Below, in pieces: positions 43,865 to 48,993 of a stretch of DNA of 51,400 nt. The notes beneath the pieces were generated by a model. It was not told where the DNA came from. It worked only from the letters and a program-made list of their open reading frames with translations, and did not search any database. Origin of the DNA: an uncultured Collinsella sp. (GTDB lineage Bacteria; Actinomycetota; Coriobacteriia; Coriobacteriales; Coriobacteriaceae); the NCBI GenBank assembly GCA_949287065.1, contig CASEEV010000075.1, positions 1 through 51,400 of the forward strand, written 5' to 3'. Numbering within the stretch: position 1 is the stretch's first letter; each line of letters starts with the position of its first letter. The position numbers and the translations under genes were made by a program.

Positions 43865-44335
43865 ATGAGACACCTTAAGAAGCGCGGTCTGAGGCTCGGC
43901 ACTGACTCGGCCCACACCAAGGCCATGAAGCGCAGCCTGTGCAAGTCGCTGTTCACCTATGACCGCATTAAGACCACTGAGACGCGCGCCAAGGCCATCC
44001 GCGGCGACGTGGATCGCATCATCACCTGGGCCAAGCGTGGCGACATTCACTCCCGTCGTCTCGCCATTGCCAAGCTGAACGACAAAGAGCTCGTTCGCGA
44101 GATCTTCGAGAAGGTCGCTCAGGGCATGTGGTCCGACCGCACCTGCGGCTTCACCCGCATCATGAAGCTTGGTCCCCGCAAGGGCGACAACGCGCCGATG
44201 GTCATCATCGAGCTCGTGACCGAGCCGGTGCAGAAGAAGGCCGCCAAGAAGGCTCCGCAGAAGGTCGACACGGTCGCTCCCGTTGCCGAGGAGAAGGCCG
44301 AGGAGGCTGCTGAGAGCACCGAGGCTGCCGAGTAA
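43865..44335 (+). CDS. rplQ: Ribosomal protein L17 with acidic tail
   Basis: This 50S protein starts RHLKKRGLRLGTDSAHTKAM and has RGDVDRIITWAKRGDIHSRR and GPRKGDNAPMVIIELV. At 156 residues it exceeds the ~117 typical. The extra C-terminus is Lys/Ala then Glu/Ala-rich (EEKAEEAAESTEAAE), a tail seen in some high-GC lineages. GAGGAG precedes the ATG. Confidence 0.97.
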   Translation: MRHLKKRGLRLGTDSAHTKAMKRSLCKSLFTYDRIKTTETRAKAIRGDVDRIITWAKRGDIHSRRLAIAKLNDKELVREIFEKVAQGMWSDRTCGFTRIMKLGPRKGDNAPMVIIELVTEPVQKKAAKKAPQKVDTVAPVAEEKAEEAAESTEAAE

Positions 44336-44390: not shown

Positions 44391-44451
44391 TGTAAGGATG
44401 TACAGCGGCTGTTGGGTCTCGTCTGCCGGTTGTTGTTGGGGGGAGGATCGC

Positions 44452-47085
44452 GTGCTTGAGGTTCGCCATGTGCGGTTTGCGTACGGCCGTGCCGTTGCGG
44501 CAGCTGAGAGCGCTGTGCCGGAACCTTTGGGGGACGCTCCGGCCCCCTTTGCCCTCGACGAAGTCTCCTTCTCGGTGGCTCCCGGGGAGCGCGTGGCGCT
44601 TATCGGCCCCAATGGCTCGGGCAAGTCGACGCTCGTAGGTCTTCTCGGAGCCGCTCTCGCCCCTGCCTCGGGCTCGGTGACGGTCGATGGCGTTAATCCG
44701 TGGGCGGGTCGCAGCGAGCGCTTTGCCGTCCGTCGTTTGGTTGGCGTGGTGCGCCAGGACCCCGCCCTGCAACTCGTTTCGACGGTGGTTGCCGATGACG
44801 TCGCATTCGGTCCGCGCAACCTCGGCCTCGATCCTCGTGAGGTCGAGAGGCGCGTGAGGGCGGCGCTTGACGTCGTTGGGCTGAGTGATGTTACGCAGCG
44901 CGACGTGTCGTCCCTTTCGGGCGGCCAGCAGCAGCGCTTGTCGCTTGCGGGCGTGCTCGCTATGGAGCCGCGTTATCTGGTGCTCGACGAGGCCACCTCG
45001 ATGCTCGATTCTGCCGCGCGACAGGAGATGCGCTCCCTTTGCGAGCGCCTGAGCAGTGAGAAGGGTATCGGCATTGTCCAGGTGACCCACGACCCGCTCG
45101 AGGCCCTGTCGGCCGACTGCATCGTGGTACTCGAGGGCGGAGCGGTCTGTGCGGCGGGCACTCCCGGTGAGCTCGCTCGCAGCAACGCCGATGTGCTCGC
45201 GCGCGAGCTGTATCTCGGCGCCTATGGCTCGTATGTTCTGGCTGCGCGCCGTGCAGGCTATCTGGGCAGGGGCGTGGAGCCTGGGGATCTTGCTGGTTGG
45301 CTCTGCGCTCAGTCGTGTGAGGCGCGCGGGCGTATTCAGGCGGACGCGGCGGCGTGGCGCGGGGCGGATGGGACAGCGTTCGGTGCCTCCGACGGATTGT
45401 CTCAACAGCCTAAGTCCGGGGCGAGCCGGGCGGCGGACGGCTTGCGCCTTGAGCATGTGAGCTTTGGGTATGACGAGGCCGATGTTCTCTCAGACGTGAG
45501 CCTTGACGTGGCGGGTGGAGAGCTCGTGCTCGTTGCCGGTCCCTCGGGATCGGGAAAGTCGACTCTTGCGCGCATTGCCGCCGGTCTTTATGAGCCCGCA
45601 CGGGGGTCCGTCACCTGTGCAGGCGCCGCCGTGCGGCCAGGGGATGTGGGCATCGCGTTTCAGAGGCCCGAGGACCAGCTGTTTTTGAACACGGTTTGGG
45701 ACGATATTGCCTTTGCCCCACGTAACCGCGGACTCGATGATGAGGAAGTGGCGCGCTGCGTTGAAGAAGCGCGCCTTATGGTCGGCCTTGATGAGGATCT
45801 TCTCGGGCGCTACCCCGTGACGCTCTCGGGCGGTCAGGCGCGTCGTGCGGCTCTCGCCGGCGTGGTGGCGCTCAGGCCTTACGCGTACGTGTTCGACGAG
45901 CCTACCGCCGGCCTCGACTGTGCGGGCAAGCGCTTCATCGTGGCGCTTGCCCGCACTATGGCGCGCGCGGGGGCGCCGGTGGTCGTGGTGAGCCACGATC
46001 TTGCCGAGTGGTTCGAGGTCGCCGACAGGGTTGTGTGTATCTCGCACGGACGCGTGGCATGGGAGGGCGAGACGACCCTTCTCGAGTCCTCGTCCGACGC
46101 GTTTGCCGCGGCGGGTATCGAGCCTCCGGAGTGGGCGCGCCTGCGCCAGGCGTGCCCGTGGCTGACCAACGAGCGCCGCGCTCCGCTGCAAGGGGCGAGC
46201 GCTTGCCGCAAAGCGTCTTGTGCCGGGGGCGCAGCCGCGCAGGCGCCGCAGCCTCGGGACGGCAGGCGGAAACAGGGGAAGAGCCCCACGGCCATGCGCG
46301 CGTTCGGCAGCTTTACGGCGCCCGATGCGCCGCTCGCGCGCGTGGACGCTCGGGCGAAGCTCGCCCTGCTTCTCATGGTCACGGTGGCGGCCTTTGTCGT
46401 GCCGGCGCCAGCGGGGCTCGTGGCACTCGCTGCGCTTCTCGTCTTTACGGCGCATGCCGCCCGCGTGACGCCGCTGAGCTTTGCGCGCGCCCTGCGCCCT
46501 GCGGCGTTTATCTTGACCTTCTCGCTTTTGGCCAACGCGCTGCGCGTTGACGGCTCGGGGCAGTTTGCGCTTCTGGGCCCTGTAGGCTTTGATCCCGCCG
46601 GGGCCGCCCGTGGTGCGGTGGCCGTGGCGCGCATCGGTCTTTTGGTCGGGTTCGCGCTCACGGTCTCGGCGAGTACGACTCCAACGGCGCTTGCCGACGC
46701 GTGCACGCGGCTGCTCTGGCCGCTCAAGCGCCTGGGGCTCCCGTCTGCCGAGATCGGCATGACGGTATCGGTGGCGCTGAGGTTCGTGCCGCTGGTCTCC
46801 GAGGAGCTCGAGCGCATCCGCCTGGCCCAGCGCTCGCGCGGCGCACGGTTTGACGAGGGCGGCGTGCTGGCGCGTGTGCGCGCATGGGCGAGCGTGGTGA
46901 CGCCGTTGGCGGTGAGCCTCTTCAGGCGGGCCGACGCGCTCGGCGAGTCTATGGAGAGCCGCTGCTTTGGCGCGGCGGATCAGAGCGCGCTTGCACCGCT
47001 CGCACTTGCCGCGCGTGACCGCGTGCTGCTCGTGTGCGGGGTACTCGCGCTTGCGGGTTGCGCGTTGTGGGCGATGCTTGCGTGA
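44452..47085 (+). CDS. Fused ECF transporter energy-coupling module (EcfA-EcfA-EcfT)
   Basis: One 877-residue chain contains the whole energy-coupling module of an ECF vitamin/metal importer. ABC domain 1: Walker A GPNGSGKST at about residue 52, signature SLSGGQQQRLSLAG, Walker B YLVLDEATSML. ABC domain 2: Walker A GPSGSGKST at about residue 363, signature TLSGGQARRAALAG, Walker B AYVFDEPTAGLD. After a ~70-residue linker, residues about 631-877 are EcfT: several hydrophobic helices and the coupling motifs QRSRGARFD and SMESRCFG. These are normally three genes (ecfA1, ecfA2, ecfT) in this exact place between rplQ and truA. GTG at 44452 follows GGGGGAGG. No S component is adjacent, so it probably serves several. 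Confidence 0.92.
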   Translation: MLEVRHVRFAYGRAVAAAESAVPEPLGDAPAPFALDEVSFSVAPGERVALIGPNGSGKSTLVGLLGAALAPASGSVTVDGVNPWAGRSERFAVRRLVGVVRQDPALQLVSTVVADDVAFGPRNLGLDPREVERRVRAALDVVGLSDVTQRDVSSLSGGQQQRLSLAGVLAMEPRYLVLDEATSMLDSAARQEMRSLCERLSSEKGIGIVQVTHDPLEALSADCIVVLEGGAVCAAGTPGELARSNADVLARELYLGAYGSYVLAARRAGYLGRGVEPGDLAGWLCAQSCEARGRIQADAAAWRGADGTAFGASDGLSQQPKSGASRAADGLRLEHVSFGYDEADVLSDVSLDVAGGELVLVAGPSGSGKSTLARIAAGLYEPARGSVTCAGAAVRPGDVGIAFQRPEDQLFLNTVWDDIAFAPRNRGLDDEEVARCVEEARLMVGLDEDLLGRYPVTLSGGQARRAALAGVVALRPYAYVFDEPTAGLDCAGKRFIVALARTMARAGAPVVVVSHDLAEWFEVADRVVCISHGRVAWEGETTLLESSSDAFAAAGIEPPEWARLRQACPWLTNERRAPLQGASACRKASCAGGAAAQAPQPRDGRRKQGKSPTAMRAFGSFTAPDAPLARVDARAKLALLLMVTVAAFVVPAPAGLVALAALLVFTAHAARVTPLSFARALRPAAFILTFSLLANALRVDGSGQFALLGPVGFDPAGAARGAVAVARIGLLVGFALTVSASTTPTALADACTRLLWPLKRLGLPSAEIGMTVSVALRFVPLVSEELERIRLAQRSRGARFDEGGVLARVRAWASVVTPLAVSLFRRADALGESMESRCFGAADQSALAPLALAARDRVLLVCGVLALAGCALWAMLA

Positions 47086-47215
47086 GGCTCCGCCCTTGCG
47101 GGGCGCATGGTGAAGCTGTGGGCTCGCTGTGCGCTCGTTACGGGCGGGTTCGCGCCCGGGTATAGGTCGGTTTGGCGTACGGGCGCCCAGGGAGCGCCTC
47201 GAGAAAGGACGAAAC

Positions 47216-48118
47216 GTGGAGCGTATCGAGACTCATGCGCAGGGCGCGGACGCTGGCGGCATGATGGAGAGCCCCAAGACCTGCAGCGCCGGGGCGGCTT
47301 TTGCATCGGAGCGCGCGCTTCTCGACGGCACGCTGGTCATGAGGCTCGCCTACGACGGCGCGGGCTTCTCGGGTTTTGCCGAGCAGCGCGAACCCGAGTT
47401 GCGCACGGTGGCGGGGGAGATCCGACGCGCCCTCGAGACGCTGCTGCGCCGCCCGGTGGAGCTTACCTGCGCCGGCCGCACCGACGCGGGCGTGCACGCC
47501 GTGGGCCAGTACGTGAGCGTTCCGGTGACCGCCGAGGAGCTTGAGCTTCCTGCCGGCCGTTTGCAGCGCGCGCTCGGGGCCCTGTTGCCCGACGACGTGG
47601 CGCTGAGGGGCCTTTACGCTGCCGAGAGGGGCTTCTCGGCCCGTTTTGACGCACATGCGCGCAAATACCGCTACCGCATTGCCCAAGGGCCGTACCGTCC
47701 GCTTATGACGCGCTCGTACGCGTGGTGGCAGCGCGACGAGCTCGACGTTGAGGCCATGAGCAGGGCGGCGGCGCACTTGCTCGGCGAGCAGGACTTCAAG
47801 AGCTTCTGCAAGGCCTCGTCGGCGGTGGGCAAGCCCACGTGCCGCAACGTTCTCAAGGTCGGGTTCTCGCGCGAGGAGGCGCTCGGCGAGACGTGCCTGG
47901 CCTTTGACATCGTGGGGTCGTCGTTTCTGCACTCGATGGTCCGCACGATCGTGGGCAGCCTGGTCGAGGTCGGGCGCGGGCACCGCGACCCCGACTGGAT
48001 ACGCGAGGTTCTCGCCGCATGCGACCGGCGCACGGCCGGTCCGTGCGCTCCGGCGCGCGGCCTGACTTTCGTTGACGTGGTATACGATGAGGGCGCGCTC
48101 GCGCCCTGGAAGGACTGA
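47216..48118 (+). CDS. truA: tRNA pseudouridine(38-40) synthase
   Basis: This enzyme modifies uridines 38-40 in tRNA anticodon stems. The 300-residue protein has MRLAYDGAGFSGFAEQ, the catalytic Asp in CAGRTDAGVHAVGQYV, and the C-terminal FLHSMVRTIVGSLVEVGRG. About 40 extra N-terminal residues precede the core. GTG at 47216 with GAAAGGACG upstream is preferred over internal ATGs without a site. Its location after the ECF genes is the usual one. Confidence 0.95.
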   Translation: MERIETHAQGADAGGMMESPKTCSAGAAFASERALLDGTLVMRLAYDGAGFSGFAEQREPELRTVAGEIRRALETLLRRPVELTCAGRTDAGVHAVGQYVSVPVTAEELELPAGRLQRALGALLPDDVALRGLYAAERGFSARFDAHARKYRYRIAQGPYRPLMTRSYAWWQRDELDVEAMSRAAAHLLGEQDFKSFCKASSAVGKPTCRNVLKVGFSREEALGETCLAFDIVGSSFLHSMVRTIVGSLVEVGRGHRDPDWIREVLAACDRRTAGPCAPARGLTFVDVVYDEGALAPWKD

Positions 48119-48126
48119 CGTTTCCG

Positions 48127-48993
48127 ATGGAACTTGCTCTGCACGTGCTTGAGCACGCGCTGTCCGACACGGTGCACCTGGTGCCGTTCCTGTTTGTGAC
48201 CTACCTCGTCATGGAGGTTCTCGAGCATACGGCGGGCGACAAGCTCGAGCGCCTGGTTGCCCGCACGGGCAGGGCGGGCGCGCTCATCGGCGCCGCTGCG
48301 GGCGTCGTTCCGCAGTGCGGCTTCTCGGCCGCCGCGTCCACGCTCTACGCGGGGCGCGTGATTACGGTCGGCACGCTGGTGGCTGTGCTTCTCTCCACGT
48401 CGGACGAGCTGCTGCCCATCTTCGTTGCCGAAGGTGCGCCTGCCGGCGAGCTCGCGACCATTCTCGCCATCAAGGTCGTTGTTGCCGCGGTTGTGGGGCT
48501 TGCGGTCGACGCGGGCGCCCGCGCGCTCGGGCTTGGCGGCGACGGCCACGCGCACATTCACGATCTGTGCGAGCACGACCACTGCGCCTGCGATCATGAG
48601 TCGCCCGTTCTTTCGGCGCTCAAGCACACGCTCACGGTCACGGTGTTCATCTTCTTGGTCACGGTGGTGCTCGACGGAGTGATCGAGGCGGTGGGGGAGG
48701 ACGCTATCGCCGCTGTTATCGCACGGAACCCGACGGCGTCGGTGTTCGGCGCCGCGGTGGCGGGCCTCATTCCCAACTGCGCCGCATCGGTGCTCATCAC
48801 CCAGCTGTACCTCTCCGGCGCGCTCGGGTTCCCTGCCCTTATCGCGGGGAGCCTCGTGTCAACGGGCGTGGGCGCGCTCGTGCTTCTGCGCACTAACCTG
48901 CATGCTAAAGAGAACCTCTGCATCTTGGGCGCGGTGTTTGTTATCGGCATAGCGTGGGGCCTCGTCTTCTCGGTCGCGGGCGTTTCTCTCTAG
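48127..48993 (+). CDS. Putative 10-TM heavy-metal/manganese exporter
   Basis: This 288-residue membrane protein fits the ArsP_2-type family (annotated as arsenic efflux or putative manganese transporter). It has two hydrophobic halves, each with a PxC motif (VPQCGFSAAAS near residue 61 and IPNCAASVLIT near residue 220), separated by a His/Cys-rich loop (HAHIHDLCEHDHCACDHE) that probably binds metal. This internal two-fold layout supports a transport pore. The substrate is uncertain. It starts 8 nt after truA and may be co-transcribed. Confidence 0.75.
   Translation: MELALHVLEHALSDTVHLVPFLFVTYLVMEVLEHTAGDKLERLVARTGRAGALIGAAAGVVPQCGFSAAASTLYAGRVITVGTLVAVLLSTSDELLPIFVAEGAPAGELATILAIKVVVAAVVGLAVDAGARALGLGGDGHAHIHDLCEHDHCACDHESPVLSALKHTLTVTVFIFLVTVVLDGVIEAVGEDAIAAVIARNPTASVFGAAVAGLIPNCAASVLITQLYLSGALGFPALIAGSLVSTGVGALVLLRTNLHAKENLCILGAVFVIGIAWGLVFSVAGVSL

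Follow-up and report, generated by a model that had tools for sequence, protein, structure and literature searches.

The energy-coupling module of a group II ECF transporter is very probably encoded as one chain, EcfA1–EcfA2–EcfT, in an uncultured Collinsella sp., with its S-proteins encoded elsewhere and an origin in two steps, as judged from sequence. EcfA1, EcfA2 and EcfT are usually separate proteins that together form the ATP-driven motor with which bacteria import vitamins. The initial annotation of this DNA had read all three subunits in a single frame, and a stop-free frame of 877 residues together with domain profiles bears this out.

The reading frame and its domains

The fusion gene was analysed in a window of 51,400 nucleotides, i.e. 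the whole stretch of DNA under study. Translation of positions 44452–47085 of the forward strand yields 877 residues without a stop codon. The open frame extends upstream as far as TTG 44356. GTG 44452 is the likely start and gives the N-terminus VLEVRHVRF, which resembles the MLEV starts of relatives. Besides rplQ and truA (Table 1), rpoA was confirmed as a neighbour of the fusion locus, and a gene for a putative heavy-metal exporter of the ArsP_2 family lies 3′ of truA (48127–48993). No RNA elements were detected in the whole window with Rfam at gathering thresholds.

Table 1. Features of the fusion locus (nucleotide positions in the window; residue numbers of the fusion protein).
Feature	Position	Strand	Residues	Details
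rplQ	43865..44335	+		upstream neighbour, marker of the conserved locus
Likely ribosome-binding site	44438..44446	+		GGGGGGAGG; 5 nt before GTG 44452; from sequence
ecfA1-A2-T fusion gene	44452..47085	+	877 aa	start GTG, stop TGA
EcfA1 ATPase domain	44452..45201	+	1-250	Pfam, NCBIfam, motif alignment
EcfA1 motifs				Walker A GPNGSGKS 52-59; Q-loop Q102; signature LSGGQ 155-159; Walker B/catalytic Glu DE 179-180; H-switch H213
EcfA1 C-terminal helices and linker 1	45202..45441	+	251-330	308-327 predicted disordered
EcfA2 ATPase domain	45442..46161	+	331-570	Pfam, NCBIfam, motif alignment
EcfA2 motifs				Walker A GPSGSGKS 363-370; Q404; LSGGQ 458-462; DE 482-483; H515
Linker 2 (EcfA2 to EcfT)	46162..46293	+	571-614	578-618 predicted disordered
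EcfT transmembrane scaffold domain	46294..47082	+	615-877	profile, alignment, solved-chain match
EcfT coupling motifs				SRG 795-797; SRC 836-838
truA	47129..48118	+		downstream neighbour, marker of the conserved locus

The domain profile search proposed in the initial annotation recovered two ABC_tran domains and one CbiQ domain from Pfam, all far above cut-off (CbiQ score of the EcfT part, 103.7 bits). With NCBIfam the ATPase halves scored 402.7 bits for ECF_ATPase_1 (cut-off 315) and 389 bits for ECF_ATPase_2 (cut-off 330); they are the TIGR04520/TIGR04521 pair, i.e. ECF transporter ATPases. The EcfT part matched the solved EcfT chains 4hzu_T and 4huq_T with E of about 1e-23. The catalytic motifs had been described as intact, and an alignment of 32 fused relatives agreed: the Walker A, Q-loop, signature, Walker B aspartate, catalytic glutamate and H-switch residues of both ATPases are invariant. 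The same holds for the coupling arginines of EcfT, R796 and R837, whose motifs are of the Ala-Arg-Gly type but read SRG and SRC rather than exactly ARG. Linker 2 has a basic end, GRRKQGK.

An AlphaFold2 model of the fusion protein, computed with the 32 fused relatives, reached a mean pLDDT of 85.7 and a pTM of 0.85. Values below 50 were confined to the linkers (308–327 and 578–618), a loop (14–27) and residues 844–846. In a fold search, where the match covered mainly residues 1–561, both ATPase domains jointly superposed on DppD of ATP-bound DppABCD (473 residues, rmsd 2.8 Å, Z 29.2), itself a double ATPase in a single chain. Taken singly, the ATPase domains had CbiO and EcfA1 as their best structural matches. 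The model is consistent with a head-to-tail pair formed by the ATPase domains of one chain.

Artefact or separate subunits

The assembly that carries the fusion is a 97-contig draft, and the two genomes G001 and G003 of the same genus have an A1A2 fusion with a separate ecfT at the same locus, the parts being 54–59% identical to those of the window. There, T is a gene of its own that may start within a GTGA shared with the stop of A1A2, whereas in the window it is joined. Both observations could be taken to mean that an assembly or sequencing error merged A1A2 and T, which would then be separate genes in the living cell. However, the same frame is present in G002, another species of the genus, with 80% identity along its length. 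Between the two, indels in linker 2 are of whole codons only; dN/dS (NG86) is 0.15–0.18 in the domains and about 0.57 in linker 2. The three-part fusion also occurs in many further genomes, some of them assembled as 1–3 contigs. The second genome of the genus and the many others rule out an assembly error as the cause of the fusion, and we regard its probability as negligible. By these sequence comparisons, the A1–A2–T fusion is a real, conserved and natural single-chain arrangement. The view that an entire ECF module lies in one polypeptide thus stands, on the profiles, the kept motifs, synteny, the second genome of the genus and a confident three-domain model. In the comparison of 44452–47085 with locus L008, the T part had the lower synonymous divergence (dS 0.34, against 0.56–0.64 in the ATPase parts).

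A continuous frame could still give rise mainly to a separate EcfT, through an internal start at ATG 46294 or proteolysis of the linker, and the motor would then consist of A1A2 and T. This ATG lies in frame at the old ecfT start with an AGGGGAA stretch upstream, and linker 2 is variable and predicted to be disordered. Yet the sister species G002 has CTG in place of the ATG, and the old T start carries no Met in most fused relatives, so a separate T start appears not to be maintained. The linkers also remain in frame across repeated independent fusions. We therefore consider production of a separate EcfT unlikely.

Probable assignment to group II transporters

By every sequence feature tested, the fusion appears to belong to the group II ECF modules. 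Its components, motifs and their order are those of group II EcfA1–EcfA2–EcfT (4huq, 4hzu, 5jsz; solitary module 8bmr/8bms), with the ATPase domains matching EcfA1 and EcfA2 and the T domain matching solved EcfT. The solved modules are three separate proteins, whereas the fusion is a single chain whose domains are connected by two long linkers predicted to be disordered. What is new relative to these modules is that the parts are covalently joined and that this join is convergent. The fusion shares two ATPase domains per polypeptide with YkoD of the group I transporter YkoEDC (PMC5037267) and with other A1–A2 fusions (PMC6828968). In YkoEDC, however, the T protein YkoC is separate, whereas in the window T is joined and an adjacent S gene of its own is absent.

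As a group II module, the fusion would be shared by several S-proteins and would drive vitamin uptake. Few S-proteins were found in the window genome: two of family PF12822, one BioY and no ThiT. A weak S-family match was rejected as a probable MreD, since it lies on contig 77 behind an MreC-like gene. BioY is encoded on contig 19 as a lone gene, where no ATPase or T gene was recognised beside it in the 3.4 kb examined, and biotin is therefore a candidate cargo. Contig 31 harbours an ECF-like module in which an S-protein lies next to A-A and T, and a further EcfT-like gene lies on contig 82; these two other EcfT-like genes could also serve S-proteins. The presence of other ECF-like modules, one with its S-protein adjacent, lends some weight to a reading of the fusion as a dedicated (group I) or non-vitamin ECF/ABC system for one substrate. 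Against it, no S gene was found at the fusion locus among the neighbours checked (rpoA, rplQ, truA, ArsP_2), so the dedicated S gene beside A and T that defines group I systems of the YkoEDC/CbiMNQO type is missing there. The ATPase pair, moreover, scores as ECF transporter ATPases. A dedicated system is thus very improbable, and we favour a group II module.

ECF transporters are thought to work with an S-protein that repeatedly docks and is set free again (PMC7755397, PMC12075633). In a single-chain group II module the two ATPase domains would pair head to tail, and ATP would be bound and hydrolysed at their shared interfaces. The attached EcfT would rest on the ATPase dimer through its coupling helices and relay the movement, by way of its two arginine motifs, to a substrate-binding S-protein encoded elsewhere. 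As in other group II systems, S-proteins such as the lone BioY would attach and detach, while the motor itself would be held together covalently, its subunit stoichiometry fixed at 1:1:1 by the fusion.

Distribution and origin of the joins

The initial annotation had given no frequency of the fusion in relatives and called for a count of architectures across genomes. Such a count gave 29 of the 67 species of the window's family with the three-part fusion, and it is thus common there and less surprising than had been implied. A strong T match was obtained in 43 of the 67 genomes, and among the 42 rplQ–truA loci examined in the family the remaining 13 have A1A2 with a separate T. Overall, 34 of 62 rplQ–truA loci carry all three parts in one gene, 25 have A1A2 plus T, and 3, all from the outgroup, are fully split. 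Five of these 34 three-part fusions come from a second sampled family, f2, where loci were chosen for long frames and the number is no rate. None was found at 18 further loci of the order. Four long-frame outgroup candidates each proved to be three separate genes, since the extended frames around T in the outgroup reflect distinct genes that overlap. Outside the class no three-part fusion was verified in a 396-genome phylum sample, among the matches listed (E up to 1e-100), some of whose loci were opened.

Several loci differ from these arrangements. In the actinobacterial family f40, apparent single frames consist of A1A2, a TAG stop and directly thereafter an in-frame start codon, and are therefore two genes. 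This was seen in all seven genomes opened (L130–L136); a single substitution would fuse A1A2 and T, and readthrough is conceivable. One member of the window's family, G045, has a paralogous second ECF locus (L137, C2:107108–109762) with an A1–A2–T fusion in a 923-aa frame, away from its rplQ–truA locus. In G078 of family f3, T directly follows rplQ with no A1 or A2 match in the 5.8 kb examined (L112), which suggests another arrangement of the module in that family.

The spot between rplQ and truA had been said to hold three genes normally, and the outgroup families of the class indeed keep A1, A2 and T apart there. The two most-sampled families have A1 fused to A2 throughout. As read from sequence, the A1–A2 join is old and common to the two families, and the A2–T join is recent and repeated. 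The old join would have come first and the A2–T join later, several independent times. The fused state requires 9 changes when placed on a tree built from rpoA, rplQ and truA, the neighbour genes, and 7 on the tree of the module itself, although low-support branches make the exact number of gains uncertain. With a split root, every change on both trees is a gain, with zero losses at any loss cost. Forcing all fused members of the window's family into one clade was rejected (AU test, p-AU ~7e-15), which rules out a single origin within the family. The window species and G002 are paired with full support; their genus has two other members, and in both T is separate. Horizontal transfer of the fused gene into the genus is unsupported, the fused pair grouping with its unfused congeners in both trees. 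At 10 of 13 split loci inspected the T start codon overlaps the stop of A1A2 (or A2) as ATGA or GTGA, and an A2–T fusion is therefore easily reached by a small indel. High G+C, with its fewer chance stops, was rejected as the driver, since G+C does not differ between fused (65.0%) and split (65.4%) loci.

Fusions of A1 and A2 are already documented (PMC6828968, PMC5037267), and a 2025 paper states that ECF subunits are ‘sometimes fused into multidomain proteins’ (PMC12075633). We found no description of a full A1–A2–T fusion or of its repeated origin in the literature searched, which is weak evidence, subscription papers being mostly uncovered. We give even chances to the strongest reading, an obligately single-chain, complete ECF motor with at least seven convergent origins within a single bacterial order. 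If this is true, the motor need not come apart during the transport cycle, and there would be a recurrent advantage in subunits fixed at 1:1:1. An inseparable three-part motor would be a testbed for whether the S-protein alone leaves during the cycle, and for single-molecule and cryo-EM studies the fusion offers a construct with one gene and a fixed subunit ratio. Repeated, independent A2–T fusion beside unfused close relatives would provide a natural experiment on why subunits fuse.
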